Positions 3,020-36,163 of a stretch of 64,000 nt of DNA are shown here, piece after piece (the stretch's first letter is position 1; each line of letters starts with the position of its first letter). The notes beneath the pieces were generated by a model. The model ran no database searches and had not been told where the DNA came from. It was given only the letters and a program-made list of their open reading frames with translations. Source of the DNA: Lichenibacterium ramalinae (GTDB lineage: Bacteria > Pseudomonadota > Alphaproteobacteria > Rhizobiales > Beijerinckiaceae). A program made the translations under genes and the position numbers. The stretch lies in assembly GCF_004137085.1 (NCBI RefSeq), contig NZ_QYBC01000010.1, positions 1 through 64,000 of the forward strand, in the 5' to 3' direction.

Positions 3020-6000
3020 TCAGGCTGGCTGGGCGTCAGGGTCGACCTCGGCCATGACGCCGACGACCGGCATGTGGACGAACGTCCCGAGGCACATGCC
3101 CCCCGTGACGGAGGCCACCGCCTGTGCGTAGAGCGCGAGTTGCGGGGCGTGGGACGCCGCCCTGGCCTCCCACAGGTCGCGCCGACCCGGAAAGCTCTTG
3201 TGGTCGAAGATGGCGAACCCCTCGCCGTCCTCGACCAGGAGGTCGACCCTCCCCACCACCTCCTGCCCGCCCACCAGGGCGTGCACCGGCACCTCGCGTC
3301 GCACGCGAGCTTCGGGGAACCGGCGCCGGAGGAAGGCCCAGAGCCGGTCCGACGCCGCCATCGCGTCGGCCGGCGCCAGGCTCTCGGACACGCCCCACCT
3401 CCCCAGGACGGCCCGGGCCCGGTCCCGCCTGGGGCCCTCGCCCAGCCTAGGGTCGTCGCAGGCCAGGAAGGCGTGGAGCGCCTCGCCCAGGAGGTCCATG
3501 TCCGGATCGCCGACGAGGGGGAGCCGACCGCCGAGCTCGGTGCGGACGACGAGGCTGCCGCCCGGGTCGGAGGCCGCGCTCGGGCGCAGGCGGAGCGGCC
3601 TGGCCATGGCGGCGCCGAGCGACGCGGGCAGGTGGGCGGGGGCGACGTCCGCGGCGCGCTCGCGTTCGACGCCGCGGACGGCGACGCTCCGGGCAGGGTG
3701 GGGCCGACCGCCGACGGTGACCGCCCCCTCGCCGGGGGCGGGGAGTCGGACGTGGGTGCCGCCCCCGACGTCGAGCACGTCCAGTGCCGAGGGCGGGCGA
3801 CCGCCCGCCACCGTCAGCACGAGGTGGTCGCGAGGCCGCGTCATGCCGACGTACAGCAGGCGGACGGCCTCCTCCCGCGCGACGCGGGCCGCTTGGAGGC
3901 CGACGACGCTCGCCGCGGCCGACGCGTCCATGTGGACGTCCTTAGCCTGTCTGCCGTAGGGCCAGACCCAGAGGCGCAGCCAGCGGTTCGCCAGCGGGTC
4001 CCGCCAGGCCGGTTCGCCCTCGCACTCGACCGCCAACCCGAACGGCGAGGACCTCGACTCCCTCTCGAGCTGCCCGAGGACGACCACGGGCCACTCGAGC
4101 CCCTTCGCCCGATGGTAGGTCATGACCTGGACGGCGTCCGGGTCCTGGCTCCTCGGCCTCCCCGTCTCGCGCGCCGCGAGCCAGGCGACGAGACCCGCGA
4201 GGGTCGCGGGGGATCGCAGCCTCGCGCACTCCTGGCCGTGGGCGGCCGCGGCGCCCCTGACCGCCTCGAGGTGGTGCAGTCGCTCCGCGGCGTCGCCCCA
4301 CCGGCAGGCGACGTCGACGACGCCCGTGACGAGGATGACCGCGTCGACGATCTCGCCCGGGGTGGAGCCGACCTGTCGCCCGCGGAGTCCGTCGAGGGCG
4401 TCAGCGAACGGGACCAGCGCGGCGAGCGCGGCGTCCGGCTCGGCCGAGGCCAGCGCGGCGAGCCAGGCGGACTGGTCCGACGGGTCGCCGACGAGGCGGG
4501 CCATCTCGACCAGGGCCAGCCGGTCGTCGCGGTCGGCGACCCACCTGAGGGCCGAGGCGACGAGTTGCGCCTCGGGCGCGTCGAAGAGGGTCCCCCGCGC
4601 GACCGCGACCGGGAGGCCGCACCGGGACAGGGCGCTTGCCACCTCCGCGACGTCGTCGTTCCCGCGGCACAGGACGGCGACGTCACCCGAGCGGAGCCCG
4701 CGCACGCCGGCGCCCTCCCGGACCGGCCAGGCGTCCGGGTCGGCCAGGGCCGCCACGACGCCCCCGGCGACGGCGGCCGCGAACTGCCCCCTGTTCCTCC
4801 CCTCGAGGTGCCAGACGGAGAGCGGCGGGCCCGCCAGCCCGGCATCGTCGCACGCGGCCCCGGAGAACGCCGTCCCGTCACGCGGTAGGCCCGTCGCCTC
4901 GAAGGCCGGAACGAAGGCGTCATTGACGAAGTCGCACAACCCCGGTCGGCTCCTCCAGGACGTCGACAGGAGCTCGGTCGAGCCGCCCGTGTCGGCCGCG
5001 GCCTCGCGCGCGGCCGAGAGCGTCAACCCCGCGTCCGTCCCGCGGAACCCGTAGATGGACTGCTTGGGGTCGCCGACCCAGACGCTGCGCGAGGCTATGC
5101 GGGCCATCTCGGCGAAGAGCGCGACCTGGAGGGGACTCGAGTCCTGGACCTCGTCGACGAACACGTGGCCGATCGTCTCGCGCAGACGCTCCCGGTTCGA
5201 GGGGTCGCGCAGGACCTCGAGCGCGAGCGCCTCCTGGTCGACGAAGTCGACGAGCCCTCGCTCGGCCTTGTGGGCCTGGTAGGCCGTCATGGCCGTCGCG
5301 GCGCATGCGAAGCTGAGCTCGACGAAGCGACGCAGGTCTCGACGCAGGCGTGGGTGCCCGGCATGGGCGGCGGCTGCGCGTGCGGTCGCCCGGAAGATCG
5401 CCTCGTCCGCCTTCGGCGTCCTCGGCTTGGAGAGCTTGGCCCACAGGGACCACGGGAGCTCGTCGCCTCGACGGAGGATGTCCTCGGCGGACCTGAGCGC
5501 CTCCGCGGCGCCCGCGCTGCCCGACCTGAGCGTGGTCCCCGCCGCCGCGGCGATCGCCAGCCCGACCTCGCGCCGGAGGTCCGCGTCGAGGTCCTCGGCC
5601 GAAGCCCGGGCCTCGTCGGGGAGTAGGGCGAGGAGGCCTCGCACGGACCTCTCGGCGCAGTCCGCGAAGCGCTCCGGCTCGATGCCGTTCGAGCGGGCGA
5701 GCTCGACGACGCGCAGGACCTGCGAGCGCCAGTCCAGGTCCCGCTCCGCCAGGCCGAGGACCTCGGAGAGCTGGTTCAGCGCCGCCGCGGATCCGGCGAT
5801 GGCCTCGTCGGCGGCGGTCGCGAAGACGCCCGGGAGGCTCTCCTCCGGGATGACCTCGCTGGCCGGCGACCGGCCGAGTTCCATTGCGAACTCCGACACG
5901 AGGCGACCCGAGACGGAGTTGACTGTGCCCATGCGCGCCCCGAGGAGCTCGACGGCCTCGTCGACGCGCTCCTCCGCGACGAGGTGGGCGCGCACGCGCT

Positions 6001-6163
6001 CGACGAGCTCGCCGGCCGCCTTCACGGTGAACGTGGTCGCGACGATGCGGGACGGGTCCGCCCCGTCCGCGATCGCGCGCGCGATGGTCCGCACGAGCGT
6101 GTGCGTCTTGCCGGTGCCGGCGGAGGCGAGGGTCGCGTCGACCCGGTTCATCGGACGTCGCAT
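3020..6163 (-). CDS. RecB/AddA-like UvrD helicase-nuclease
   Basis: A 1047-residue SF1A DNA helicase fused to a nuclease, like the AddA or RecB subunit of recombination nucleases. Walker A is ASAGTGKT at residues 13-20. Later come the DEVQDS Walker B motif, GDPKQSIYGFRG (motif III), VMTYHRAKGLEW (motif V) and LLYVGMTRPRDHL (motif VI). The C-terminus has a PD-(D/E)XK nuclease core near residues 975-995 (GRVDLLVEDGEGFAIFDHKSF with D and DHK). It is somewhat shorter than housekeeping AddA. The AddB-like gene ends three bases upstream, so the two are one transcript and probably one complex. A second ATG at 6151 is an alternative start. The island setting suggests a defence or element-specific DNA-processing role rather than the chromosomal enzyme, but that is inference. 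Confidence 0.85.
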   Translation of the reverse strand: MRRPMNRVDATLASAGTGKTHTLVRTIARAIADGADPSRIVATTFTVKAAGELVERVRAHLVAEERVDEAVELLGARMGTVNSVSGRLVSEFAMELGRSPASEVIPEESLPGVFATAADEAIAGSAAALNQLSEVLGLAERDLDWRSQVLRVVELARSNGIEPERFADCAERSVRGLLALLPDEARASAEDLDADLRREVGLAIAAAAGTTLRSGSAGAAEALRSAEDILRRGDELPWSLWAKLSKPRTPKADEAIFRATARAAAAHAGHPRLRRDLRRFVELSFACAATAMTAYQAHKAERGLVDFVDQEALALEVLRDPSNRERLRETIGHVFVDEVQDSSPLQVALFAEMARIASRSVWVGDPKQSIYGFRGTDAGLTLSAAREAAADTGGSTELLSTSWRSRPGLCDFVNDAFVPAFEATGLPRDGTAFSGAACDDAGLAGPPLSVWHLEGRNRGQFAAAVAGGVVAALADPDAWPVREGAGVRGLRSGDVAVLCRGNDDVAEVASALSRCGLPVAVARGTLFDAPEAQLVASALRWVADRDDRLALVEMARLVGDPSDQSAWLAALASAEPDAALAALVPFADALDGLRGRQVGSTPGEIVDAVILVTGVVDVACRWGDAAERLHHLEAVRGAAAAHGQECARLRSPATLAGLVAWLAARETGRPRSQDPDAVQVMTYHRAKGLEWPVVVLGQLERESRSSPFGLAVECEGEPAWRDPLANRWLRLWVWPYGRQAKDVHMDASAAASVVGLQAARVAREEAVRLLYVGMTRPRDHLVLTVAGGRPPSALDVLDVGGGTHVRLPAPGEGAVTVGGRPHPARSVAVRGVERERAADVAPAHLPASLGAAMARPLRLRPSAASDPGGSLVVRTELGGRLPLVGDPDMDLLGEALHAFLACDDPRLGEGPRRDRARAVLGRWGVSESLAPADAMAASDRLWAFLRRRFPEARVRREVPVHALVGGQEVVGRVDLLVEDGEGFAIFDHKSFPGRRDLWEARAASHAPQLALYAQAVASVTGGMCLGTFVHMPVVGVMAEVDPDAQPA

Positions 6164-6166: not shown

Positions 6167-8839
6167 CTAACCCCCCGCCCTGACCCGGCAGACGTGCCCC
6201 ATGTCGCAGAAGGCGCAGACCCTCTCCCCGGGCGGGAAGCCGAGGTCGGCGGGCAGGTGCTCGGCGACCCCGGGCACCCCGGTCGCCAAGCCGCGGCCCG
6301 AACGCGCCAGTCGCGTGAGCTTCCCCCAGTCCGTCTCCATCGCCTCCCAGGTCGCGTCCAGCGTCCGCGCGACTCTCAGGCCCTCGCGTGCCAGCGCGGA
6401 TCCCGCCTCGGCGAGAAGCTCGCGCTGGCGCAGGAGGTAGTAGCCGGCCGGCGCGCCGCCGGCCGGGGCGACGAGGTGGCCGTAGGTGGCGAGCTGGATC
6501 GCACGTCCCTCCTCCAGCTCCGTCCGCCGCCACGTCCGCGAGCTCGTCCACTTCAGGTCGATGACCGCCTCGCCACCCTGTCGGTCGCGGACGAGGAGGT
6601 CGATGCGGCTCCGGATCGGGGGAGCGCCGGCCGCCGACGCTCGCTCGACCTCCATGCCGACGACGGCCATGCCGCGATCGGCGAGCAGTGCCGCGAGCGT
6701 CGCCAGCGAGTCCGGGATGCGTGCGCGGGCGAAGGCGAGCTCGCCCGACGACCCGGAGAGGCGGAGGGGGGCGGCGATCGCGTCGACGACAGCGTCGAGG
6801 CCGGCCACCGCCGCCCGTCGGACCTCGTCGGGATCGGGGACCCTCCCGACGGGGAGCACGGCCTCGGCGAGGGCATGGGCGACGTTGCCGATGAGCCTGT
6901 CCCGTGCGGGGATGGCGTGCGCGCGGCCTGCGCGCAACCGGGCGACGTGGCGGAGCACCCAGCGGAACTGGCACTCGAGCAGGTCCTGGATGGACGACGC
7001 GGTCTCGGCGCGCCCCTGCACCGCGTCGGCCAGCGACGCCGGCAGCGCCCACGTGGCCCTGGCCGCGGGCAGGTCGACCTTGGAGTGGGCGCGGCGGATC
7101 ACCTCCCGCCCGGCCAGGCGCACCCTGGCGTCCGCCAGAAGAGCCTCCGCGTCCGCGCTGATCGCCGCGCGGCTGGGCCCCCTCAGCATCGGGGCCATCC
7201 TGTGGGCGAGCGGGTGACTCGTGACCTCTGCGCCTCGGTCCAGGGACGGCGTGACCAACACCAGCGCTCCCCGAGCTGCCAGGACAGGCTGCTCCCAGTG
7301 GGCCGCCGCCCTCCGACGCATGCGGGCCGCGGTCTCGACCTCGCAGCCTGCCCCGGCGAGGGCCGCGGTCTCCGCCTCGGTCCAGGGCTGCCGCGTCTGT
7401 CCCTCGGTGCCCGAGAAGCCCCACCACACGATGCGCGCGGCTTCGCCCCAGACGGCCCCCGGCCGCGTCACGACCCTCGCGCCGCCCTCCTCGGCGACGT
7501 GGGCCGGGTCGGGCAGGCCCTCCGCGACGGCGATGTCGATGAGACCCTCCACCTGCGTCGCGGTGACGGGCGAGCGGCCGAGCGCGCCGAACGCGCCGGA
7601 CAGGGCGTCGGCCGCGCCGACGGCGCAGAGGAGCAGGGGATCGCGCGCGCCGCCGTCCGTCGCGAGCGCCCATCGGCGCACCCGGTCGCTGATCGCCGCC
7701 GCCGCCGCCGCCGGCATCCCGCTCGAGCGGCCATGGGCGCCGACCTCCATCCACGCGCGCCATTCCGCCAAGATGGCCTTGCCGGCCGCGCCCCCGTCCC
7801 GTTCGGCGACGCCGGCCTCGATCGCCGACCAGGCGTCCGCCCACGCCGGCCCGCCGACGCCGGGCTCGCGCGACAGCGCGCCCGCGAGGAGGCGGGCGGC
7901 CCAGCGGTCGATGGGCGGCGTGGGGAGCAGGAGCAACTCGAGGAGCTTCTGCGGGTCGAGCGGCGCCCACGCGACCGAGAAGGCGAGGGGGAGCAGCTGC
8001 AGCGCGCCGCGGTGGGTCGACCGCGGCGAGGCGCCCAGCGCCGGTAGGCCCCGGCGCGCGAAGGCCCCGTCGAGGAGGCCGGTGTCGCCGGACGGGACGA
8101 CGAAGACCGTCCCGCGCCCGCGCCCGGGGTCGTGCGCCACCCAGTCGGCGACGGCCTCCGCGGCCATGATCGCCGTCCGACTCTCGAGCAGCGTCAGCGA
8201 GCCGTCCCCGACGAGCGAGCCGATCCCGCCCCCGCCCAGGAAGCGCTGGAGGCGGGCGAGGTCGCCGTCGCCGGCCGTCGGGGTCGTCGACGGCCGGCGC
8301 GAGACGGCGACCCCCGAGTCGGAGAGGGCCCGCGCCAGGGCCTGCCATGGCGGCGGCAGGAGGTCGAGGTCCTCGATCGTCTCGAACGTGGCGAGCTCCG
8401 ACCGCGCGCCGCCCGCCAGGCGAGAGATGACCTCCCGCAGGAGGTCGGACCGGCACCTCGGGAGCGGGGGCGGGGTGAGCTCGGCGGCGGCAAGGTCCGC
8501 GAGCCGCGGCCCCGCCGTCCCGGTGTCGACCGGAACCCAGCCGGCCTCCGTCAGATCGTCGCGCCACGACAGGAGCAGGCGCGCCGTCGAGAGGGCGTCG
8601 GCCACCAGGGAGGCGGAGTAGAAGCGCGGTCCGACCGCCGCGGCGGCCTCGAGCTTCGCCTGCCAGGCGGCGATCCTCACGACGGGCGCCACCGGCGGGC
8701 CCGAAAGCCCGAGTTGCCCGGCCAGGAGGTCCAGCAGGCCCGCGGGGCCGACCACCGCTCCGCCGACCGCGCCCGATCCCGTGCCGGGATGGGCCGGGTG
8801 GGCGCCCCCGTCGGCCGCCATGCCGAAGACCACGTGCAT
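6167..8839 (-). CDS. AddB-like PD-(D/E)XK nuclease with Fe-S cysteines
   Basis: An 890-residue protein resembling the AddB subunit of double-strand-break processing nucleases. The N-terminal two thirds looks like a degenerate helicase fold with no clear Walker A motif. The C-terminal nuclease domain carries RIDLLVRDRQGGEAVIDLK (about residues 745-765), the PD-(D/E)XK core. One cysteine in LLECQF (about 621) plus CAFCDMGHVC near residues 875-884 form the four-cysteine iron-sulfur set of AddB/Cas4-type nucleases. The ATG at 8839 has GGGGAGG upstream at ideal spacing, so longer upstream frames were rejected. It lies between the small gene at 8996-9463 and the helicase gene, in one operon from the promoter near 9580. 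Confidence 0.8.
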   Translation of the reverse strand: MHVVFGMAADGGAHPAHPGTGSGAVGGAVVGPAGLLDLLAGQLGLSGPPVAPVVRIAAWQAKLEAAAAVGPRFYSASLVADALSTARLLLSWRDDLTEAGWVPVDTGTAGPRLADLAAAELTPPPLPRCRSDLLREVISRLAGGARSELATFETIEDLDLLPPPWQALARALSDSGVAVSRRPSTTPTAGDGDLARLQRFLGGGGIGSLVGDGSLTLLESRTAIMAAEAVADWVAHDPGRGRGTVFVVPSGDTGLLDGAFARRGLPALGASPRSTHRGALQLLPLAFSVAWAPLDPQKLLELLLLPTPPIDRWAARLLAGALSREPGVGGPAWADAWSAIEAGVAERDGGAAGKAILAEWRAWMEVGAHGRSSGMPAAAAAAISDRVRRWALATDGGARDPLLLCAVGAADALSGAFGALGRSPVTATQVEGLIDIAVAEGLPDPAHVAEEGGARVVTRPGAVWGEAARIVWWGFSGTEGQTRQPWTEAETAALAGAGCEVETAARMRRRAAAHWEQPVLAARGALVLVTPSLDRGAEVTSHPLAHRMAPMLRGPSRAAISADAEALLADARVRLAGREVIRRAHSKVDLPAARATWALPASLADAVQGRAETASSIQDLLECQFRWVLRHVARLRAGRAHAIPARDRLIGNVAHALAEAVLPVGRVPDPDEVRRAAVAGLDAVVDAIAAPLRLSGSSGELAFARARIPDSLATLAALLADRGMAVVGMEVERASAAGAPPIRSRIDLLVRDRQGGEAVIDLKWTSSRTWRRTELEEGRAIQLATYGHLVAPAGGAPAGYYLLRQRELLAEAGSALAREGLRVARTLDATWEAMETDWGKLTRLARSGRGLATGVPGVAEHLPADLGFPPGERVCAFCDMGHVCRVRAGG

Positions 8840-8995: not shown

Positions 8996-9463
8996 TCAGC
9001 CGGCGTGGCCGGGCTCGGCGAGGAGGCCCTGGCGCATGCAGTCGAACTCGAGCGCGGCCGACAGCATCGCGACGGTGTTGTCGTGGTCGGGCGCGCACCG
9101 CGAGAGCAGCGCCGCCAGCCGCAGTTCGTCCGGCCCCGAGGTCCCCGTGGCGAAGAGTTCGAGAAGGAGCGCGCGCTCCCGCCGCCTGAGGCCCCTCAGG
9201 GCCTCGGGATCCCCGAGCGGGGGCATCACGGCCGAGATGAACTGCAGGCGGAGCACCTCCCCGGCCATGTCGTCGAAGGACCGCCTCTCCCGACCCGCCC
9301 TGCGCAGCTCGCGAAGCTCCTCCGGCGTGAGCGGCTTGACCCTGATCGAGCGCGCGGCCGACAGGTCGGCGCCGGGGATAAGACCCCGGCCGGAGCCCCC
9401 CGCGCGGGTCAGGTCCCCCGCTTCGGCCCGATGGTCGGCGGCGTCCCCTGGTTTGTTGAGCAT
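8996..9463 (-). CDS. Small unknown protein, first gene of the helicase-nuclease operon
   Basis: An uncharacterised 155-residue soluble protein. The start is ATG 9463 (MLNKPGDAADHRAEAG), chosen because GGAGGGG lies six bases upstream; an in-frame upstream ATG at 9568 overlaps the promoter. The C-terminal half is helical and better conserved (VLRLQFISAVMPPLGDPEALRGL, then SAALEFDCMRQGL), because the same segment survives in the decayed copy at 2299-2898. No enzymatic motif is visible. It is 156 bases ahead of the AddB-like gene and shares its promoter, so it is a candidate third subunit, inhibitor or regulator of the nuclease. Which one cannot be told. Confidence 0.7.
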   Translation of the reverse strand: MLNKPGDAADHRAEAGDLTRAGGSGRGLIPGADLSAARSIRVKPLTPEELRELRRAGRERRSFDDMAGEVLRLQFISAVMPPLGDPEALRGLRRRERALLLELFATGTSGPDELRLAALLSRCAPDHDNTVAMLSAALEFDCMRQGLLAEPGHAG

Positions 9464-9510: not shown

Positions 9511-9582
9511 TCACGCGTGACGGTACGTCTCGCGTGATGCAGTCTGAAGCAATAGATGCATAGCGCATCTCTACTAGTCAAG
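9511..9582 (-). promoter_or_regulatory. Promoter P1 with shared operator, helicase-nuclease operon
   Basis: On the minus strand a TTGACT -35 (9577-9582) and ATCTAT -10 (9553-9558) are 18 bases apart and drive the operon 9463-3020. The -10 lies within GCATCTATTGCTTCA, which recurs at 13.9 and 14.8 kb. A perfect inverted repeat AGATGC-N5-GCATCT covers 9555-9571, over the -10. A second one, TCACGCG-N13-CGCGTGA, covers 9511-9537 in the leader. This layout suggests repression by a dimeric helix-turn-helix protein, most likely the Xre protein at 13615-13860. Confidence 0.65.
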
Positions 9583-9948
9583 GGTTGCGATCACCGACGA
9601 TGCTGCTCCGTTTGGGGGGCGGGCAGCGCCGACCTCGCGTCGCCCACAGGTGCGAGCCGAGCCTCATCGCCGATGCGTCGGACCGCGTGCGCTCGCCCCG
9701 CAGCCGATCGTCACCTCCCTCCTGGGCCAATCAGCCCTCCCATCGGGTCACCCTGGCGACCACTGGGGCGATCCACCGTCACGGCACGTCGGGCCGACGA
9801 GATGGCGGCGGCGTCGAGACGCCCGCACCGCGAGCTCCGGCAACGTGGGGCGACCATCCCCGACGGCCCGGGCGCGAACGCCAGCGTGCTTGACCACGTC
9901 CGGATTTGGACTATCTCTGATCCTGGACTAGTAGCTGCGAGGATGGCG
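9583..9948 (+). promoter_or_regulatory. Intergenic region with putative toxin-antitoxin promoter
   Basis: Most of this stretch shows no gene. Near its end a TTGACC -35 (9890-9895) and a TATCTC-like -10 (9912-9917) precede the antitoxin start. The heptamer TGGACTA occurs twice, at 9907-9913 and 9924-9930, around the -10 and start region. Such repeats suit autoregulation by the antitoxin, which is usual for Xre/RES pairs. The assignment is tentative. Confidence 0.4.
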
Positions 9949-10476
9949 ATGTCTGGACGAGCCGCTCACGCCGACGTGGCCATCACGCCTGGCCCGACCT
10001 TCCTGGACGCCAGCCGGTTCGCCGCAACCAACCGCCGGAGGCTGAGCGCCCCCGGCCTCCGCACGTTCCTGGCGATCGCGGACCTATGGCGGTTGGACGA
10101 GACGCAGCGGCTGCTCGTGCTCGGCCTGCCGTCCCGTTCGACGTTCTACGCATGGGTCAAGGCGGTCCGGGAGCATCGCGACGTCACGCTGGACGTGGAC
10201 GTCCTGCTCCGGATCTCCGCCGTGCTCGGCATCCACCAGGCGTTGGGTATCCTGCATGGCACCGAGGATGCGGGGGTCGCGTGGCTGCGGACGCCCCACG
10301 ATACGCCCGTGTTCGGCGGCCGCCCGCCCCTCGACCTCGTGTGCAGCGGGACCCAGGACGGGCTGCTCGCCGTCCGGCGCTTCCTGGACGCCGCGCGAGG
10401 CGGCCTCCACATGCCTCCCAACGAGGTCGATCGCGACTTCCGTCCCTACACCGACGCCGACATAGTCCTGTCTTGA
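9949..10476 (+). CDS. Xre/MbcA/ParS-type antitoxin
   Basis: A 175-residue antitoxin of the Xre/MbcA/ParS family (DUF2384). It neutralises the RES toxin encoded next to it and normally represses the operon. The N-terminal helical region (residues about 40-90, LAIADLWRLDETQRLLVLG) is the helix-turn-helix part. The C-terminal toxin-binding domain is seen as WLRTPHDTPVFGGRPPLDL followed by AVRRFLDAARGG. The start at 9949 was preferred over 9943 because GAGG then sits six bases away. The stop overlaps the start of the toxin gene by four bases, which gives translational coupling. Confidence 0.88.
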   Translation: MSGRAAHADVAITPGPTFLDASRFAATNRRRLSAPGLRTFLAIADLWRLDETQRLLVLGLPSRSTFYAWVKAVREHRDVTLDVDVLLRISAVLGIHQALGILHGTEDAGVAWLRTPHDTPVFGGRPPLDLVCSGTQDGLLAVRRFLDAARGGLHMPPNEVDRDFRPYTDADIVLS

Positions 10477-11138
10477 AGACCTCCGACGCCCCGCGACCGA
10501 GCTTTCGGCTGATACCCTCGCGCTTCCCTCCCATCGACGCGTTCGAGACCGTCGCGACCGCGGCCGACCTCGCGGCGGTCATGGACCTGGCCGGTTGGAC
10601 CAACGATCATCTCGTCGAGGAGCGCCTCCGTCGGTTGCCGCGAGCGGAATGGGTCTTCGGACGCCCGAACGCCAGCGTCGTCATGGCGTCGTTCCTGCAC
10701 GTGGCGCCGGGCGGGATGCGCTTCAACGGCGGCGATCTCGGCGCCTGGTACGCCGCGGCGTCCGTCACCACCGCCGTGGCCGAGGTCGCCCACCACCTCA
10801 GGCGCGAGGCCGTCGCCACGGGGTCGGACGAGCTCAGGCGGACGTATCGCACCTACGTCGCGAGCATCGACGGGACGTTCTGCGACCTGCGGGGACGGGC
10901 ATCGGACCTGCCCCGACTCTACGATCCGACGAGCTACGCCGCCTCGCAGACCTTCGGCGAGGGCATCCGCTCATCGGGCGGTCACGGGGTCGTCTACGAC
11001 AGCCTGCGCCACGCCGGCGGGGTGAACGTCGCCGCGTACCGCACGCACGACGTCCGGGACGTCGTCCAGGCGGATCACTACGAGATCACGGTCAGGGCGG
11101 CGGACCGCAGGATCGAGGCCCGCAGGATCACGGCCTGA
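10473..11138 (+). CDS. RES-domain toxin (NAD+-consuming)
   Basis: A 221-residue RES-family toxin. Characterised relatives degrade NAD+ or ADP-ribosylate metabolic enzymes and stop growth. The family's conserved features are visible: an early arginine (FRLIPSRFPPID), GGDLGAWYAAASVTTAVAEV with the conserved Tyr and Glu, and a serine-containing segment near SQTFGEGIRSSGGHGVVYDS. The start is the TTG at 10473 inside the antitoxin stop (TTGA overlap), because no other start fits between the end of the antitoxin and the conserved domain. Length is normal for the family. The gene appears intact, so the pair should work as a toxin-antitoxin or abortive-infection module. Confidence 0.85.
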   Translation: MKTSDAPRPSFRLIPSRFPPIDAFETVATAADLAAVMDLAGWTNDHLVEERLRRLPRAEWVFGRPNASVVMASFLHVAPGGMRFNGGDLGAWYAAASVTTAVAEVAHHLRREAVATGSDELRRTYRTYVASIDGTFCDLRGRASDLPRLYDPTSYAASQTFGEGIRSSGGHGVVYDSLRHAGGVNVAAYRTHDVRDVVQADHYEITVRAADRRIEARRITA

Positions 11139-11266
11139 GGAGGTCGAGGTCGGGATCCGTCTCCCGGCGGCCCGCGATTGACGTCGCCCTTTCCCCGGGA
11201 CGTTTCGGCATGAAGCTGTCACGAACCCCGTCCACCATGTCGGCCCGGGCAGGGGAGGGTTCAGGC

Positions 11267-13464
11267 ATGACCGACGCTCTGACGCACTCGCGCAACTTCC
11301 GCAGCTTGTCCTTGAGGGACCTCCTCGAGGCTCGCGACCTCTACCACTGCACCTTATCAACAAGGCCAACGTGGTGGGGACCGCGGTCGGGCTGTACCTG
11401 ATCAGGGACTCGGAGGTCGGCACGCGGGAGGGGGATCGCGGCGGGGCGCCGGCGGAGCGCTCGTCGAGCGGCCCAAGGACGTTCGAGAACTCCGGGGTCA
11501 CCTCCTACTCGTGGCCGTGCGTGCTCGTCCTCGTCAGGGACTGGGTGGACGCCACACGGTTCGGTCACGGCGGCGTCGATCCCGATCACATGGTCCCCCG
11601 GACCCTCTACCTCCCCGACGGCCGCGCTGCGCCGGTCTGCGTCGTCGCCGTCTCCCCCGCGGAGCCGCTCCCGGCGGGGCCCGCCGACGCGCGCTTGCCA
11701 TCGTCCTACCTCGGCCCGGGCTTCCCGATCGTCGCCGACGTGCAGGGGGCCCGCCACCGGGCCAGCGTGGGATGCCTAGTGACCGACGGCCATCGGACCT
11801 ACGCCCTGACCAGCCGCTACGTCGCCGGCGAACCTGGATCGGTCGTGCAGGCGCCCCTGCGCGGCAGCCTCAGGCCGATCGGCGAGACGGCGCCCCGCCA
11901 GCTCGCCCGGCTGCCCTTCTCAAAGGTGCTCCTGGAGTTCCCCGGTCGTCGCAGCTACGTCACCCTCGACGTCGCGGACCTGAACGAGCTCAACCTGGGC
12001 CTGCAGCTGATCGACCAGCCCGTCGAGGCGTTCGGCGCCGCCTCGGGGCGCATGAGGGTAACGATCAAGGCGCTGTTCTACCGACACGAGGCGCTCGCCG
12101 GCTACGACTGCGTGTCCGAGTTCCTCATCGCCCCCGAGGAGGGCGGCGTGCAGACGAGCCCCGGGGACTCCGGCACCGTGTGGCACCTGCGCACCTCGGT
12201 CGCGGACGCGGGCGGGGTCGGCAGGATCGTCCTGCGCCCGATGGCGGTCGAGTGGGGAGGGCAGGGGGTCGCCGGCACGACCGGCCGACGGTACGACTTC
12301 GCGCTCGCCACGGGTCTCGGCACCGCCTGCCAGCTGCTCGACGTCGATCTCGTCACCGGTCACAACGTCGGGGCCCAGCCCTTCTGGGGGCAGGAGGGGC
12401 ACTACAGCATCGCGACGGTCGCGATCGACCAGGTCCGGGACGGGCGCCTCGAGGCCTTCCTGCGGGACAACGTCGAGCGCGTCAGCTTCCGGCCCGACGA
12501 ACTCGACCCGGACACAATCCGGAGGCGGCTGTCGGAGGGCGACTTCGTCGAGTTGGCGGACGTGCCGGACCTCGTGTGGAAGAAGGTGGCGGCGGACGTC
12601 CCGGGCGGGCGGGACCACGCCCGCAACGCGGGCCCCGAGCACCCCGACCACTACGCCGACATCGACCTGCCGGGCCCGGACGGCCGGACGCTCCGCGACC
12701 TGACGCTGTCGGGGATCGCCAACATGGACCCGCAGGTCTGGCGGGACTGGTACCGCGCGAACGGCGCCACCGAGGCCCGCTCGCAGGGGCTGCTCCCGTT
12801 CCGGGTCTGGCAGATCTTCGACGAGATGGTGGCGAGCCTGAGGGCAGGGGACGCCGAACGGTTCCTCTGCGCGGCGGGCATCGTCTCGCACTACGTCGGC
12901 GACGCCTGCCAGCCGCTGCACGGCTCCTTCCTGTCGGACGGCCGCAAAGACCCGGCGGACCCGAAGGCCAGGACGTGGTCGGGCAAGGGCGTCCACGCGA
13001 CCCTCGAGGACGAGATGGTGGACCGGCACGCCGTCGAGCTCCGGCCGATGATCGGCCCCGCCGCGAAGGCCTTCGGGGGTCCCATCCCCGCGATCGCCGA
13101 CGGTCGGGACGCCGCATTCGCCACCGTTACCCTGATGGCGCAGTCGGCCGAGATCCTGCCTCCCGGCGCACTCGTCGACACCTACGTCAAGCTCGGTGGC
13201 GGCGCCTCGGCACGCGTCGTCGACGGCCTCTGGAGTGCCTTCGGCCGGCAGACCGCGGACGTGATGGGCGCCGGGGCGCGCTACCTCGCGGCGATCTGGG
13301 ACGCGGCCTACGCGGTCGCGGCGACGCCGCTGCCCGATGGCGCGGGTGTCGTCTCGGAGACCGCACTGGCAGCCATCCACCAGGATGGTGGCTTCGTGCC
13401 CTCCCTGACGCTGGACGAGATCGGGTCGGTGCTGCGCCGGGCGGGTGGGGAGGCGACCCGCTGA
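11267..13464 (+). pseudogene. Trypsin-like protease fused to S1/P1-type nuclease, frameshifted
   Basis: About 730 residues in two frames. The ATG at 11267 follows GGGAGGG and encodes MTDALTHSRNFRSLSLRDLLEARDLYH; the frame then changes near 11350 and continues HLINKANVVGTAVGLYLIR to the stop at 13464. One lost C would explain it. The first half has the chymotrypsin-like layout: SVGCLVTDGHRTYALTSR before the expected catalytic His, and QTSPGDSGTVW for the catalytic Ser. The His position is Tyr (codon 11818-11820). The second half has S1/P1 zinc nuclease features: PDHYADID, GLLPFRVWQ, HYVGDACQPLH and GKGVHATLEDEMVDRH. No signal peptide is seen. Either the gene is dying or the frameshift is recent or erroneous. 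It may be an effector of a defence system, but that is inference. Confidence 0.65.
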
Positions 13465-13614
13465 CTCCCCATCGGACGCCGCGGCTGCTGCCCTTCGGGG
13501 CGTCGTCGGTCGGAGGGCGCCGATCGGGACGGAGACCGGTGCGTTCCTGACGGGGCGCTTCCCGATCTCGACCATGCGCGGGCCTAGGAGACCCGACGGT
13601 TCCGGCCGGCCCGC

Positions 13615-13860
13615 CTAGCCCGGCCGACGTAACCCGACCCCGCCGAACACCGGCACGCCCTCGACCACGGCCCCGTCCGGCAGGAGGACGATGCCGTCGT
13701 CCTCCAAGGCCCTTTGCATCAGGAGCGTCTGTCCCTCGCCCACCCCGGTCCCGGACTCGTGCCGGTTCACGGACGCCCGGCTGACCTTGGCCGCCTTGGC
13801 GAGCTCGTCCTGCGTCCAGCCGAGCATGAGCCTCGCGGCCCTGAGCTGGACCGGCGTCAT
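13615..13860 (-). CDS. Small Xre-type helix-turn-helix regulator
   Basis: An 81-residue DNA-binding protein made almost entirely of one Xre/Cro helix-turn-helix (residues 2-58: LRAARLMLGWTQDELAKAAKVSRASVNRHESG). Phage-like repressors of this size usually act as dimers on short palindromes. The ATG at 13860 lies about 30 bases from the divergent promoter P2, whose operator element is repeated at P1 and P3. It is therefore the best candidate for the common regulator of the helicase-nuclease and HNH operons. Direct binding is not shown by the sequence. Confidence 0.82.
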   Translation of the reverse strand: MTPVQLRAARLMLGWTQDELAKAAKVSRASVNRHESGTGVGEGQTLLMQRALEDDGIVLLPDGAVVEGVPVFGGVGLRRPG

Positions 13861-13887
13861 CGCGTGCGCACCCGCACGCCCAACATC

Positions 13888-13951
13888 TTGACAGCCGTGC
13901 AGATGTCACGCATCTATTGCTTCACCGTGCGTCAAAAGCGGCACGGTGAAG
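13888..13951 (+). promoter_or_regulatory. Promoter P2 with operator and perfect inverted repeat
   Basis: TTGACA at 13888-13893 is followed after 18 bases by ATCTAT, inside the shared element GCATCTATTGCTTCA. AGATG-N5-CATCT (13901-13915) overlaps the -10. Just downstream is a perfect 11-base inverted repeat, CTTCACCGTGC-N10-GCACGGTGAAG (13920-13951). It could be a second operator or an RNA hairpin in the leader. The promoter reads right, away from the Xre gene, toward 14019 and 14328. Confidence 0.65.
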
Positions 13952-14053
13952 TGTCCGTGCCGGCGATCACGTCATCACACTAGCGTCGGCCGAAGTCCCC
14001 GTCACTCACCGGACCGCGATGGTCGAACATCTCCCCAGCCCGAACGTCGCCAT
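13888..14053 (+). repeat. Direct repeat copy 1: promoter and start of the 14901 gene
   Basis: This segment matches 14771-14937: promoter, shared operator element, the CTAGCGTCGGCC block, and the start codon with the next 30 or so coding bases (CTCCCCAGCCCGAACGTCGC). The middle, which holds the inverted repeats, differs in sequence but keeps position and symmetry. A duplication of the promoter-plus-start module is the simplest explanation. Confidence 0.7.
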
Positions 14054-14258
14054 GGCCCAACCTGATGGGACCGGCGAGGGTCGTCGTCGATCGTCGCGAC
14101 GCCCTGCGCCGACGGCGGACCGGGGCCATCACGACGCGGCATCGGCTCGCGACGGAACCGGTCCGCGCGATCGGCGAGCGAGCACGCGAACCGTCGCGCG
14201 CGACGCGGAACGCGACGCACGGTCGCCGGGGTGCCTTCCGGCCCCGAACGCGCGGTGA
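14019..14258 (+). pseudogene. Truncated duplicate of the 14901 gene start
   Basis: A 79-codon frame from ATG 14019. Its first 12 or so residues (MVEHLPSPNVAMAQP) match MTVYLPSPNVAVARP at 14901; after that it is Arg/Ala-rich, low-complexity sequence with no similarity. It is driven by P2. It is most likely the leftover of the promoter-plus-start duplication rather than a functional gene. Confidence 0.5.
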
Positions 14259-14327
14259 CGACCTCCCGCGCGGGCCCGCGTCGCGCCCACCCCCGACACG
14301 AACTCCGACTTGCTGAGGATCACCACC

Positions 14328-14711
14328 ATGGACGACGTCACGCGGGTCTACGCCACGCTCGCGCCGGGACGGGCGCAGGCGAGCCTCTTCTCGGAGGTCG
14401 ATCTCCGCTCGGCGCTGCACCGGATCAGGACGGAAGCTCACTCGCCCCGTGCCAAGGTCGCGCTCTGGATGGAGGCGCCCCCGCCAGGGCAGGGGCCTGA
14501 CGTCGTCGTCTGCGTGCCCGTCGAACAGTTCGAGACCCGACGGGCACATGCCGAGGAGATCGTCGCTCGCTGGGACGCCACTTGGCTCGTCATCGAATCC
14601 ATGCCTCGCCAGCACCGTGACGCAGCTCGTCAGCTGTTAGTCGACCTCATCTCGATGTCGCTCCTCAACGCCGCGATCGAGGGCATCGAACCGACCGACG
14701 ACGACTTCTGA
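14328..14711 (+). CDS. Hypothetical protein, 127 aa
   Basis: A small soluble protein of 127 residues from ATG 14328, preceded by GAGGA at eight bases. It has an alternating strand/helix pattern (SPRAKVALWMEAPPPGQGPDVVV, then a helical AARQLLVDLISMSLLNAAIEG) and ends in an acidic tail (EGIEPTDDDF). I recognise no family. It lies between P2 and P3 and probably belongs to the P2 transcript, so it may share the Xre-controlled regulon. Function unknown. Confidence 0.55.
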   Translation: MDDVTRVYATLAPGRAQASLFSEVDLRSALHRIRTEAHSPRAKVALWMEAPPPGQGPDVVVCVPVEQFETRRAHAEEIVARWDATWLVIESMPRQHRDAARQLLVDLISMSLLNAAIEGIEPTDDDF

Positions 14712-14770
14712 CATTTGGGGACGCCGTCGGCCGTGCCCGGCGTGGCGTGGGCGGCGCCATGCCCGAACCC

Positions 14771-14832
14771 TTGACAGGCGCCGTACGTCACGCATCTATT
14801 GATTCATCATGCATCATTAGATGCATGATGAA
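14771..14832 (+). promoter_or_regulatory. Promoter P3 with operator and perfect inverted repeat
   Basis: TTGACA at 14771-14776 is separated by 17 bases from ATCTAT within GCATCTATTGATTCA, the element shared with P1 and P2. Immediately downstream is a perfect 12-base inverted repeat, TTCATCATGCAT-N6-ATGCATGATGAA (14803-14832). It sits at the same place as the differently spelled palindrome of P2. It drives the three-gene operon 14901-16484. Confidence 0.68.
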
Positions 14833-14937
14833 GCGCACCGTCCGGCATGGCGTCACCACGCTAGCGTCGGCCAAAAACCTCGTCACCCGCCGGAGCCGCG
14901 ATGACCGTCTATCTCCCCAGCCCGAACGTCGCCGTGG
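14771..14937 (+). repeat. Direct repeat copy 2: promoter and start of the 14901 gene
   Basis: The second, functional copy of the duplicated module described at 13888-14053. Here the promoter leads into the complete gene at 14901. The two copies share the -35, the GTCACGCATCTATTG block, the CTAGCGTCGGCC block and the first coding bases. Confidence 0.7.
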
Positions 14938-15575
14938 CCAGGCCCCGACCCGCGGGCGACGTGGTCCGGATCGCCGCCTTCTCGTGTCGCGGCCTGGAGG
15001 TCCTGTCGCGAAGGCTCGGCTTCCCGGTCGCGGTCGTGGCCGCCGTCCCGGACCCGGAGCGCCACCGCGAGCGCCTCCGCGACCTCTGGTACGCGTCAGG
15101 CGCGCCGATGGGCTACGGCGACTGGGTCTTGCCCTTCGACTTCGACAACTGGGACTACCGGGAATGGTCGAGGCAGGTCATCGACCCCAGGTGGTTCGGC
15201 GGAGGGAACCACCCCCTGTCCACCTGCGTGATGGACGGCGACCTGCTGCTGCGCCTCCCGCCGGGCATCCCCCCGCGCGCCTACTCCGACGCGTTCCGGG
15301 ACCGCCTCGCGCCCCTCCGCTTCGAGGCCGTGGCCAGCAGGCCCTCCTACGTCGTCCGCATGCACCACGCCCGCCGCCCCGTGACCGTCGCGTCCCGGTA
15401 CGCCCGCGCGTCTACCGAGGATCTGACGGCGGTCGAGGTCCGCGACCTCGTGCACTTCGAACCGCGGTGCCTGACGCGGATCGCTGACATGGCCCTCGCG
15501 GCCCTGCGCGACGCGACCGTCCGTACCGGCGTCGGGGCAGAGACCCCGGGACCGTCGGACGCGGTGGCGTCGTGA
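14901..15575 (+). CDS. Hypothetical protein, 224 aa, first gene of the HNH operon
   Basis: A 224-residue soluble protein. The ATG at 14901 has GGAG seven bases upstream. The central region is aromatic-rich and looks structured (YGDWVLPFDFDNWDYREWSRQVIDPRWFGGG), followed by a beta-rich part (PSYVVRMHHARRPVTVASRYA). No catalytic motif or family is recognised. It is the first gene after P3; its stop overlaps the GTG start of the HNH gene, so they are translated together. A role in the nuclease module is inferred from the operon only. Confidence 0.65.
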   Translation: MTVYLPSPNVAVARPRPAGDVVRIAAFSCRGLEVLSRRLGFPVAVVAAVPDPERHRERLRDLWYASGAPMGYGDWVLPFDFDNWDYREWSRQVIDPRWFGGGNHPLSTCVMDGDLLLRLPPGIPPRAYSDAFRDRLAPLRFEAVASRPSYVVRMHHARRPVTVASRYARASTEDLTAVEVRDLVHFEPRCLTRIADMALAALRDATVRTGVGAETPGPSDAVAS

Positions 15576-15913
15576 AGGCCGGCGAGGCCGCGTCGGCCTA
15601 TGGCGCCTACATCCGGAGCTCGGCGTGGCGGGACTCGGTGGCCCGCCATGCGGAACTGCGGTTGGCGGGGTTCCGGTGCCGGATCTGCAACCGCGGACGA
15701 TCGGAGGTGCGCCTCGAGGTGCACCACCGCTCCTACGAGAACTTCGGGCGCGAGAGCGTCGAGGACCTCACGACGCTCTGCTCCGAGTGCCACGCGATGG
15801 CGACCGAGGCGCTGCGGCGCCGACGCTACCGCGACGCCGAGCTCCCGCCGCTCGTCGACACCCCGCGGGTCCTCCGTGGGCGCGACGCCCCACCCTGCCG
15901 TTTACGAGGATGA
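15572..15913 (+). CDS. HNH endonuclease-like protein
   Basis: A 113-residue protein with a compact zinc-finger HNH fold. CRIC (residues about 31-34) and CSEC (about 70-73) form a zinc site around the core LEVHHRSYENFGRESVEDLTTLC, where the His pair and Asn match the beta-beta-alpha metal centre. HNH proteins cut DNA or RNA. The N-terminal YIRSSAWRDSVARHAELRLAG is typical of small HNH proteins near phage and defence loci. The GTG start overlaps the previous stop (GTGA), and the next gene starts one base after this stop. It is probably the nuclease of this operon. Confidence 0.82.
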   Translation: MKAGEAASAYGAYIRSSAWRDSVARHAELRLAGFRCRICNRGRSEVRLEVHHRSYENFGRESVEDLTTLCSECHAMATEALRRRRYRDAELPPLVDTPRVLRGRDAPPCRLRG

Positions 15914-15914: not shown

Positions 15915-16484
15915 ATGCCGGAAACCATCAGGCTGAGGCTGACGGGCGTCGCGCCCCTCCTCATGCATTCGGGCCGCCTGGCCGACCCCTTGGATCCCTA
16001 TGCCAAGCAGTTGGCTCGCCTCACCGCGAAAAGGGCCAAGACCGATGCCGACCTCGAGGAGATCGCGCGCGTCGAGTGGACCGGCGGCCTCTGGCTCGCT
16101 GACGGCGCGCCCTGCGTGCCCGCCGAGGCCCTGGAGGCGGCGATCGTCCAGGCGGGGAAGGCGAGGAGGGCGGGTTCGCTGATGCGCGCCGCGATGACCG
16201 TCAGGGACAGCATGCCGATCGAGCACGACGGGCCGGCTGAGCCGGCGCTGCTCTGGGCCGACGCGGCCTACCGCCACCGCTGCGGCGTCCGGATCGGGGC
16301 GCGGACGACGATAAGGACGCGTCCGCGCTTCGATCGTTGGGCGGTGACGGCCACTCTGCGATTCGAGCCATCGATCGTCGACTCGACCATGGTGACCGAT
16401 TTGGCCAGACACGCGGGCGATCTCGTGGGTTTGGGTGACTGGCGGCCGCGGTTCGGCCGCTTCCGCGTCGATGTCGCGACATAG
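15915..16484 (+). CDS. Conserved phage-type protein, possible RAMP-like fold
   Basis: A 189-residue protein. ATG 15915 has GAGGA five bases upstream. The opening PETIRLRLTGVAPLLMHSGRLADPLDPYAKQL, the block KRAKTDADLEEIARVEWTGGLWL, and the ending LVGLGDWRPRFGRFRV match, as I recall it, a family of conserved hypothetical proteins in phages and mobile elements. The N-terminal beta strand plus the terminal Gly-rich GLGDWRPRFGRF resemble RAMP/Cas5-7-type folds, but that is a guess from pattern. It is the last gene of the P3 operon. RNA- or DNA-binding partnership with the HNH protein is possible. Confidence 0.65.
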   Translation: MPETIRLRLTGVAPLLMHSGRLADPLDPYAKQLARLTAKRAKTDADLEEIARVEWTGGLWLADGAPCVPAEALEAAIVQAGKARRAGSLMRAAMTVRDSMPIEHDGPAEPALLWADAAYRHRCGVRIGARTTIRTRPRFDRWAVTATLRFEPSIVDSTMVTDLARHAGDLVGLGDWRPRFGRFRVDVAT

Positions 16485-16716
16485 CGCGACGGCGATGACC
16501 GTTTTCTTGGCAAGGTTGGGTAAGGCAGGGCATGGTGGGCTCGGCTAGGCTCGGCACGGGGGGTGGTCGGAGACGGCCACCCCAGTCCCGCATTGGCGAC
16601 CAGAGTTCGTTGAAAAATCGCGTGCCGCAATCCTGCCTGTGCTCGTCTCTCGCTGCCTCCGATATTTTACGGTGCTGTCATTTCTGCTTCGGGCCTGCTG
16701 GCGCGAACGATCGCCA

Positions 16717-18003
16717 TCACCGACCTCTGCCGCGGTTCCTGCGACTGAGCACGGCTCGACGCTTTCGCTTGCGCTTCTCGATCTCCTCCTCACGCTCGCG
16801 ACGGCGACGTTCGTCGTCCGCCCGTTCTTCTGGCTTGTCGAAAGGCTGACGGTCTGTGGCGGTCAACGCACCTACGGGCACCACCGTCCCAATCAATCGC
16901 GGAGCGACCGACCCGGCCGCCGTGGCACGCACCCGCGGCCTTGCGTCCCCGATGCTGGCCGCCCTTGCTGCGATCTCCTCGGGCGCGACCGTCGTGGGGT
17001 TTGCTGAAGTAGCGACTCCCCCGGCCGTTCCGTCGGTCGCGCCACCCGCCTTGGCAGGGCGCTCCGCAGCGCCGCCTTGGGTCTGCGTCTCCAAGCCGGT
17101 TGCGGGTCCAGCTGCGTCGCTGATGTTTCGCGAAGGCCTTATGCTCTCGACCAGCGCATCAAGCATGGCGATCCGCCGATCGACGTCGTCCGGCGCCGCA
17201 TTCCTGATCGCCTTGATCCATCCTGAGACCGCCGAGGACGCGGCCTGCGCCTCCGCAAGCGTCGGTGCCCGTCGGCCGGCCCGCGCCAGGGGGCTGGTCG
17301 TGGAGCCGGCGGAGACCGCGCCTCGACCGGCCGACGCAGCGCGGGCCAGGGCGTCGTTTCCCCGGCGCGCGCCGGCGCCCCTCGCCATCGACGGCACCTC
17401 GACGGCGACCTCCCGACTTGACTGGCGCTGCACCTCGTCGTGAGCGCCGCCCTCGCGCGCGGGCCCGACGGCCGCGTCGGCCCGCGCGAGGGCGATCCTC
17501 ATCGCCAGCGTCACCGTCGGGGGCGGTGCCCCGACGAGGGCCTTCCACTCGTTGACGGCCTTGCCGACCTGGTACCGCAGCGCCCGCCTGGCTTTCTCCG
17601 TCGAGGCCCTCGTCTCCCGGATCTCCTCCAGCGCTGCCGCTTGGAGGAGGCGCGCCGCCTCGGCCGCGGGGGCCTCCCCCTTGAGGACGGGGTCCTTCCT
17701 CCCGGCGGCGGCCTCGACGGCCTTGGGCGACGTCGCCGCGACGATCCGCTCGAGGGACGCCAGGGTCGCCCTCTCCATTACGTCGACGTGGAGAGCGGCG
17801 TGCCGCGCCTTCAGGATCCCCCTCCCGGCCTTCTGCAGGGAGGCTCTCCCGACCTGCGCGAGTGGCGAGGCCGCGACCTCGATGCCGCCAAGCCGCAGTG
17901 CGGCGGCGGCGATGGCCTGCGCCGACCGGTCGCCGCCGGATCCCGCAAGCGCCTCGGCGTGGCGGGCGCGCGCCCGCAGGCGGACCTCCGTCAGGGGATC
18001 CAT
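16717..18003 (-). CDS. Hypothetical Ala-rich protein with basic tail
   Basis: A 428-residue protein rich in alanine, arginine and glycine. The first 190 residues are predicted helical (AVEAAAGRKDPVLKGEAPAAEAARLLQAAALEEIRE pattern). A low-complexity Ser/Ala/Gly linker follows. The end is strongly charged: acidic/basic coiled-coil-like sequence, then a lysine/arginine tail ending RRNRGRGR, suggesting nucleic-acid binding. No family is recognised. It starts three bases after the stop of the 18007-18387 gene, so they form a two-gene operon. The reverse strand also stays open, but the start context and operon spacing support this strand. Confidence 0.5.
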   Translation of the reverse strand: MDPLTEVRLRARARHAEALAGSGGDRSAQAIAAAALRLGGIEVAASPLAQVGRASLQKAGRGILKARHAALHVDVMERATLASLERIVAATSPKAVEAAAGRKDPVLKGEAPAAEAARLLQAAALEEIRETRASTEKARRALRYQVGKAVNEWKALVGAPPPTVTLAMRIALARADAAVGPAREGGAHDEVQRQSSREVAVEVPSMARGAGARRGNDALARAASAGRGAVSAGSTTSPLARAGRRAPTLAEAQAASSAVSGWIKAIRNAAPDDVDRRIAMLDALVESIRPSRNISDAAGPATGLETQTQGGAAERPAKAGGATDGTAGGVATSANPTTVAPEEIAARAASIGDARPRVRATAAGSVAPRLIGTVVPVGALTATDRQPFDKPEERADDERRRREREEEIEKRKRKRRAVLSRRNRGRGR

Positions 18004-35038: not shown

Positions 35039-35054
35039 GCTTCTCGCGCCTGGG

Positions 35055-35924: not shown

Positions 35925-36163
35925 TAGAGCGCATAGTTGGACGAGAAGGCCCTGATCCCGTCGCACCTGCAGCGGTCCCGGATCTTGAACCACGGGTCGC
36001 CCATGGCGATGCCGAGCGCCTTGGCCTCTGCCGTGCGCGCGATCGCGCAGCCGTCGTTGTTCGACAACACGATGACGGGCACTCGCTTGAGCCTGGGGTC
36101 GAAGACCCGCTCGCACGAGCAGTAGAAACTGTTGCCGTCGATGAGGGCGAGCACTTGGCTCAC
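35925..36163 (-). pseudogene. umuC: UmuC-like Y-family polymerase, N-terminal fragment
   Basis: The GTG start at 36163 overlaps the umuD stop (GTGA), as in umuDC operons. The frame encodes [42 protein letters not shown] and GDPWFKIRD, the canonical UmuC N-terminus with the first catalytic Asp. Similarity ends after SSNYALYG at about 35925, roughly 80 residues into a protein of about 420. The frame then runs on as unrelated Arg/Gly-rich sequence to 35684. The polymerase core is missing, so no polymerase can be made. Confidence 0.88.

Follow-up and report, generated by a model that had tools for sequence, protein, structure and literature searches.

Local control of a defence cluster is known in kind. 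RptR is presented, in the available part of its report, as a small protein, locally encoded, that represses a defence island and binds repeated short palindromic sites in the promoter (PMC12255303), and the WYL regulators BrxR and CapW are described, in the accessible portions of the papers, as transcription factors encoded beside phage-defence genes (PMC9122601, PMC9122589, and PMC9122588). In Pseudomonas putida, the Xre-RES pair represses its own promoter, to a palindromic repeat of which it binds, as far as the available text of that source goes (PMC12204516). The switching of defence genes is far less known than their action. We here analyzed the first 64,000 nucleotides of contig NZ_QYBC01000010.1 of Lichenibacterium ramalinae (hereafter the window), in which a 15-base element, GCATCTATTGMTTCA, precedes both an operon for an AddAB-like helicase-nuclease and an operon formed by the gene at 14901 (gene 14901), an HNH gene, and a gene for a protein with a predicted Cas7-like fold. 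A preliminary description of this DNA had proposed three promoters under a single Xre repressor. The features concerned are as follows:

3020-6163, minus strand: AddA-like UvrD helicase with a C-terminal PD-(D/E)XK domain (PF00580, E=1.2e-37; PF12705, E=7.1e-9)
6167-8839, minus strand: AddB-like protein with a PD-(D/E)XK domain (PF12705, E=2e-19)
8996-9463, minus strand: 155-residue protein, first gene behind P1, no Pfam match over the cut-off
9545-9581, minus strand: P1, TTGACT-N16-GCATCTATTGCTTCA, putative promoter/operator upstream of the 155-residue gene and the AddB-AddA-like operon
9946-10476, plus strand: Xre/MbcA/ParS antitoxin, rival candidate regulator (PF09722, E=5.7e-11)
10473-11138, plus strand: RES toxin (PF08808, E=6.7e-26)
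13615-13860, minus strand: 81-residue Xre-type helix-turn-helix (HTH) protein, candidate repressor (HTH_3, E=1.8e-7)
13888-13924, plus strand: P2, TTGACA-N16-GCATCTATTGCTTCA, duplicate of P3, divergent from the xre gene
13905-14057, plus strand: duplicated segment that contains both the element and the dyad of P2 as well as a truncated copy of the first 13 codons of gene 14901 (spacing 881-882 bases, 73-86% identity)
13920-13951: P2 dyad, 11-bp arms, 10-nt loop
14328-14711, plus strand: 127-residue protein between P2 and P3, with relatives in two loci of genome G001 that have 14901-family genes
14771-14806, plus strand: P3, TTGACA-N15-GCATCTATTGATTCA, upstream of the 14901-HNH-Cas7-like operon
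14803-14832: P3 dyad, 13-bp arms, 4-nt loop, two compensatory double changes relative to P2
14901-15575, plus strand: 14901 protein, defining member of the module
15572-15913, plus strand: HNH protein (PF01844, E=9.9e-6)
15915-16484, plus strand: phrog_4652 protein (full-length match, E=5.1e-47, positions 4-191 of 194) with a fold predicted to be Cas7-like

The likeness to RptR consists in a small local repressor, here a candidate, of a defence cluster containing a toxin-antitoxin system. According to the available part of that report, RptR acts on the promoter of its own island through a conserved TAGCTA, with Type I restriction-modification, whereas in the window two separate operons share the operator, the sequence of which varies from locus to locus. 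BrxR and CapW, as presented in the accessible portions, belong to a protein family other than that of the Xre protein of the window; of the nine AddAB-like plasmid loci with annotation, four (L024, L025, L031, and L032) have a WYL gene, and none turned up near the window pair, where no search was aimed at WYL. As in the described part of the P. putida system, an Xre/MbcA-RES pair is present (adjacent genes at 9946-11138, the Xre-RES toxin-antitoxin arrangement) and palindromes lie at promoters, control by which is predicted here. On the other hand, the element of the window stands before the AddAB-like operon and gene 14901, not directly before the MbcA-RES genes; the promoter of the latter contains no exact GCATCTATTGMTTCA, and the nearest copy is that of P1, which is directed away from these genes and the end of which lies 364 nt short of position 9946.

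The window pair resembles alphaproteobacterial AddAB in having adjacent genes for a UvrD helicase with a C-terminal PD-(D/E)XK domain and a second PD-(D/E)XK protein, but differs from the canonical enzyme: the AddA-like protein scored far below the NCBIfam cut-off (TIGR02784, addA_alphas; 156.2 against 860.75 bits), and no NCBIfam match at E<=0.01 was found for the AddB-like protein. Since the host has a canonical AddB elsewhere (G000:C16:102829-105927, 956 bits), the window pair is an additional helicase-nuclease. With respect to Gabija, the AddA-like protein matched GajB models in parts only among the 25 of 49 families shown for it, and no GajA was listed for the 10 proteins scanned. In the literature, searched at the level of titles and abstract openings (in part the best 10 or 20 entries) and with few subscription papers, neither the gene set nor a comparable orphan phage Cas7-like protein was found described, and AddA and AddB had no match in the text of PMC12839542. 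These results agreed with those from the defence libraries covered and with the preliminary statement that no described system has this set: what appears to be new is the gene set together with its locus-specific operator.

The shared element and its duplication

Exact copies of GCATCTATTGMTTCA were present at 9545-9559 (minus strand), 13910-13924 (plus strand), and 14792-14806 (plus strand), spanning 5.3 kb, and were the only three exact matches in the assembly (5,798,877 bases, 99.4% complete), in which approximately 0.02 would be expected by chance (arithmetic with equal base frequencies). When up to two mismatches were allowed, six matches were obtained, the three non-exact ones each having two mismatches and one of them lying inside the P3 dyad. 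At up to three mismatches, the window contained four, a number that not one of 100 shuffles attained (0.53 ± 0.70). A pattern search of 149 relative genomes detected the element in the window's own genome only. All three copies stand behind TTGAC, as initially described, although P1 corresponds to 9545-9581 rather than 9553-9582 and the measured gap between TTGAC[A/T] and GCATC is 16, 16, and 15 bases in P1, P2, and P3, respectively, not the 17-18 claimed. By eye, these three promoters and that of a paralogous locus in the same genome (L017; see below) have TTGAC followed by GCATCT at the -10 position, with a further GCATC or GCGTC 18-19 bp beyond it.

P2 and P3 belong to two colinear copies of one stretch, spaced 881-882 bases: 13905-13964 and 14787-14846 (73% identical), 13970-14013 and 14851-14894 (82%), and 14014-14057 and 14896-14939 (86%). 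One promoter, along with the beginning of gene 14901, was thus duplicated, which rules out P2 as an independent promoter and leaves only P1 and P3 of the three sites independent of each other. Because the likeness behind P2 stops after 13 codons, P2 is a spare copy of P3. P1 was similar to P2/P3 in the operator stretch alone (84% over 25 bases), no flanks being shared among the repeats listed, and is, as judged from this comparison, the informative second site.

In the dyads of P2 and P3 (TTCAYCRTGC...GCAYGRTGAA), both of the two arm differences were compensated in the opposite arm, while the flanks were 82-86% identical; two changes made at random in that arm would compensate in this way with odds of approximately 1 in 405 (arithmetic). 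This covariation speaks for a function and may be a sign of selection. The presence of a dyad alone means little, because the window is repeat-rich in comparison with Markov sequences (16 inverted repeats with arms >=10 and loops <=12, against 1-8 in 10 first-order Markov sequences), and inverted repeats as such were rejected as proof of function. The perfect inverted repeat previously ascribed to each site was strong at P2 and P3; at P1 it came down to a trivial GATGC-N5-GCATC.

Recurrence of the gene set and the 14901 family

The set of an AddAB-like pair, a 14901-family gene, Xre, HNH, and phrog_4652 was found in the window and at two loci, L019 (on contig L062) and L020/L086, of Beijerinckia sp. 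L45 (genome G076, assembly of 5.7 Mb, 97% complete), which is of the same family as the window genome, presumably Beijerinckiaceae. The order in L020/L086 is phrog_4652, HNH, Xre, a 176-residue gene, AddA2, AddB2, antitoxin, RES, 14901 family, and an AAA ATPase. AddA2 is only distantly related to the window AddA (E=1.1e-16) and belongs to another subfamily, and no recognizable relatedness was found among the products of the 176-residue gene, the 155-residue gene, and gene 14328. The RES domain was significant (E=2.7e-14) and the antitoxin domain below the cut-off (E=0.0007); phmmer with the window MbcA and RES proteins had missed this pair, and Pfam recovered RES. A palindrome, GATATCTARGATATC, occurs with up to one mismatch at only three places in the 5.7-Mb assembly, all of them in L020: at 1622-1636, 32 nt before the 176-residue gene and overlapping the -10 of CTTGAC-N17-TAGATA; at 7720-7734 (GATATCTAGGATATC), beside the start of AddB2-AddA2 and between AddB2 and the antitoxin gene; and at 9185-9199 (GATATCTAAGATATC), 36 nt before the 14901-family start. 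This operator was found through palindromes in eight chosen promoter regions, and its third copy by a later scan; the promoter regions of L018, another locus with a 14901-family gene, have different repeats.

In L019, a small open reading frame, a 14901-family gene, AddB (116 nt on), and AddA run in one direction behind CTTGAC-N17-CTATAG, and the Xre, HNH, and Cas7-like (phrog_4652) genes diverge on the opposite strand. At all three loci with the module next to an AddAB-like pair, the two share either the operator (window and L020) or one gene line (L019). The best support comes from L020, an independent replicate of operator sharing with a different sequence; it is the sharing that recurs, not the sequence. 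The first suggestion, that the helicase-nuclease operon is linked to the 14901/HNH cluster, holds to the extent that the link recurs in another genus, by a private operator in L020 and as one line in L019. Two reading frames, at 9658-11130 of L086 (integrase-like by eye) and before the 14901-family gene in L019 (excisionase-like by eye), had no Pfam match at E<=0.01 and were dropped.

Relatives of the AddB-like protein were found in 26 plasmid records and in 32 loci of GTDB species genomes, the latter number being a lower bound based on two peptide patterns. The AddB-like and AddA-like genes were adjacent in 41 of 41 loci (9 of the 26 plasmid records and the 32 genome loci; L062 was read as one frame through an N run, and L046 and L059 look near-identical), several of which lie amid defence-type genes (for instance, CBASS, AbiE, or methylase). 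In the stretches fetched around these pairs (up to ~10 kb on each side, less on short contigs), matches to the module (14901, HNH, Xre, and phrog_4652) were found in L062 only, and GCATCTATTGMTTCA occurred at up to one mismatch in none of the 41 loci; with two mismatches it was present in L024, L047, and L058, ~3-7 kb from AddB. The expectation that the element always sits before these genes was therefore not borne out, and the AddAB-like pairs without module and element indicate that the switch belongs to the 14901 module. A second AddAB subfamily was found on 61 plasmid records; in the six examined, neither matches to 14901, HNH, and phrog_4652 nor the L020 operator (up to two mismatches) were found, and a weak Xre match (E=4.6e-4) was located ~7 kb away in L186. 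In L188, also of this subfamily, an annotated RES gene adjoins the pair.

As a weak control, the longest exact repeat linking the 200 nt in front of AddB to any other part of its locus was compared in 40 loci, namely, the window (upstream region taken at the 155-residue gene), L020, 9 plasmid loci, and 29 of the 32 genome loci (without L057, L073, and L074). Its length was 15 bases in the window, 30 in L067, and 10-14 in the others; a 15-mer version with one mismatch was not discriminating. The L067 repeat (a Spirochaetia contig) extends exactly over at least 30 bases and lies ~4 kb away (~5789-5845). Two genes behind the AddAB-like pair of L024 (a Sinorhizobium terangae plasmid), a GIY-YIG nuclease is annotated at 16484-16822. 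In the window itself, the stretch downstream of the AddA-like gene (2268-2720) holds a broken second copy of the 155-residue gene in two frames, so that copies flank the operon.

The 14901 family is rare. It was detected in 3 of 149 relative genomes, including its own, and, with a diverged query, in 10 of 298 family genomes; two limited searches of 397 order genomes (often with seven candidates scored) found none beyond its own genome, and a search for relatives in plasmids and viral contigs found none. Some plasmid-borne proteins are distantly related to the 14901 protein. A second copy in the host (G000:C13:209242-209832, minus strand; 55-59% identical; pair 195 kb away) constitutes locus L017, in which it diverges from a related Xre gene (10035-10313 of L017; E=3e-27), and TTGACG-N16-GCATCTGAGATGCACCATGCATCAATTGCTGCA, a decayed copy of the element, lies between the two. 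Xre genes accompany the 14901 family in the window, L017, L018, L019, L021, and L020/L086. Divergent xre and 14901-family genes with an operator may represent the older unit, which in the window would have been split by the duplication and gene 14328. In G001, GAGAGATACAATATCTCTC is located upstream of one of two tandem 14901-family genes and occurs once in that genome at up to two mismatches; this stretch had no AddAB-like match. T5orf172 (PF10544) matched the relatives in L111 (E=0.014) and L112 (E=0.0066) below the cut-off, and those in L114 and L118 and the window protein gave no PF10544 match: a T5orf172 or GIY-YIG-like link of the family is a lead, not membership. The structure prediction of the 14901 protein (predicted local distance difference test, pLDDT, 48.6 from two sequences) was not used. 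Several distant relatives adjoin AAA ATPase genes (L110, L111, L112, and L117, with Pfam confirmation in L117), and the L117 locus also has a relaxase.

A candidate local regulon and competing explanations

We consider it fairly probable that these features represent a regulon local to a mobile island with many defence genes, a repressor on a private operator switching two operons together. A cluster-encoded, sequence-specific repressor would bind the operator overlapping the start site of both, one operon comprising the 155-residue gene and the extra AddB-AddA-like helicase-nuclease, and the other gene 14901, the HNH protein, and the orphan Cas7-like protein. While bound, it would keep both off; on its loss or inactivation, for instance, upon transfer to a new cell or under phage attack, both would be turned on, and the nuclease and its partners would appear simultaneously. 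The 81-residue Xre protein is the most likely regulator, with a chance that we put slightly short of even, because Xre genes accompany the 14901 family and the likeness of the operators tracks that of the recognition helices: both are alike in the window (VSRASVNRHE) and L017 (VSRATINRYE), and the operators differ where the helices differ (L018 and L086). It had been taken for the only HTH gene between the sites; the gene at 9946-10476, between P1 and P2, encodes the Xre/MbcA/ParS antitoxin.

Several results weigh against such a regulon. GCATCT at the -10 position (by eye) is a weak -10 match, and P1 has no long dyad. The loci with both an AddAB-like pair and the module number three, in one bacterial family, and two of them are in one draft genome. 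Palindrome arms of >=7 were absent from 3 of the 8 chosen regions (L019, L086, and L021), and in L020 it is a sequence other than the operator that forms the longest exact repeat before AddB2. L020 also has no operator copy before xre or before HNH-Cas7, and hence the Xre protein would not be self-regulated there and HNH-Cas7 would be outside the shared-operator set. No Xre, HNH, Cas7-like, or AddAB match was found at the 11 loci that have distant relatives of 14901; contig ends truncate some of these loci. Of the 41 AddAB-like loci, five (L028, L046, L050, L058, and L059) have an Xre-RES pair nearby, and none of the five has the module, so that the association of Xre-RES may be with AddAB, not with the module.

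This last result bears on the regulator. Control of AddAB in trans by the Xre/MbcA antitoxin with its RES toxin, in place of the 81-residue protein, is unlikely but retains an appreciable chance: the pair adjoins AddB (or the 155-residue gene before it) in the window and L020, in L020 an operator copy separates AddB2 from the antitoxin gene and xre has none in front of it, and the P. putida pair represses its own promoter through a palindromic repeat, according to the available part of the source (PMC12204516). L017 and L018 combine a 14901-family gene, Xre, and an operator-like site with no MbcA/RES match, which is weak counter-evidence because the same search missed the L020 pair, and in the window and L020 the antitoxin gene has its own TTGAC promoter-like stretch (by eye) without the element. 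The weakness of this test and the Xre-RES pairs near several AddAB-like loci led us to weight the antitoxin upward. Otherwise, the regulator would be an unseen factor. A common regulator would not be needed at all if P2 and P3 arose by duplication (>=150 bp) and P1 by promoter capture or chance, as the colinear copies and the 10-14-bp repeats (30 bp in one case) upstream of AddB at other AddAB-like loci would allow; however, P1 shares a ~25-bp operator stretch with P2/P3 but none of their flanks among the repeats listed, and the dyad covariation and the sharing of another sequence in L020 also make this explanation unlikely.

A role of the dyads in RNA (5' hairpins affecting attenuation or stability) instead of as DNA operators appears quite improbable. 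Either model accounts for the covariation of the P2 and P3 dyads and for their place directly behind the -10 position, but P1 and the L017 promoter have the element and lack the long hairpin (by eye), the window has no Rfam match at gathering score, and the palindrome at 1622-1636 of L020 overlaps the -10, upstream of the likely transcription start. The presence of mobile DNA on the island (39878-40888, phage-type integrase; 41408-42178, IS630-like transposase) would fit an integrase site or transposon end; nevertheless, every copy of the element is at promoter distance before a gene, and the sequences at that position differ by locus, so that a recombination site is very improbable. A regulon with a private operator would offer a testable case, having two operons, one operator, an independent natural replicate, and adjacent candidate repressors.

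The putative Cas7-like protein and the surrounding region

The structure of the phrog_4652 protein was predicted with high confidence (pLDDT 94.7, 24 sequences). A structure search gave 45 PDB hits at E<=1e-3, all of them chains of CRISPR type III or VII effector complexes, with a best match of 1.3e-5, TM ~0.5, and 9-17% identity; the chains were mostly of Csm3/Cas7 size, and we take them, from general knowledge and this size, to be Cas7/Csm3 subunits. Four hits at E<=1e-3 were obtained in a viral structure library, the third being named Cas-associated RAMP protein. A Cas7/RAMP-type fold is therefore predicted. The likeness to the Cas7 backbone proteins of Class 1 CRISPR lies in this predicted fold, whereas no array-like direct repeats were found in the 64-kb window, which has only two 2-copy direct repeats of >=20 nt within 120 bp, and no further Cas gene was recognized among the window proteins scanned. 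The protein is found in at least 154 phage records and is unnamed in all 25 of those listed. An HNH gene adjoins the phrog_4652 gene in 4 of 10 loci from other genomes (L076-L079); L080-L082 had weak matches without HNH, and L083-L085 gave no phmmer match. In 4 of 5 phage records (L122-L124 and L126), the gene after phrog_4652 encodes a 146-179-residue protein, a possible partner, with no Pfam family over the cut-off.

We regard it as decidedly doubtful, though worth stating, that the co-regulated proteins might form one new interference machine, composed of the AddAB-like pair, the orphan Cas7-like filament protein, HNH, and 14901, which would target invading DNA or island mobility and in which a diverging repressor-operator pair would give each copy private control. 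If the regulon is real, an AddAB-like helicase-nuclease, otherwise found on plasmids of several rhizobial genera, would have been captured by a regulatory module and would work with its genes. The case also draws attention to a protein of phages, Cas7-like in its predicted fold, for which no CRISPR context was seen at the window.

The first 42 kb of the window resemble a mobile island rich in defence genes. A 697-residue protein (11371-13464), encoded between xre and the gene for the RES toxin, matched the PADLOC 'trypsin-like' model (E=2.8e-40). A large protein at 20897-24508 has superfamily 1 (SF1)-type helicase domains (AAA_11/AAA_12) and an N-terminus that is kinase-like by eye; its relatives accompany 14901-family genes and relatives of gene 14328 in two G001 loci, L018 and L118. 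Further along are a SIR2-domain protein (25484-29155), a TPR protein (30236-32953), an HTH plus IrrE-like protease (33923-35173), and an S24 peptidase (36160-36747), followed by the integrase and transposase mentioned above.

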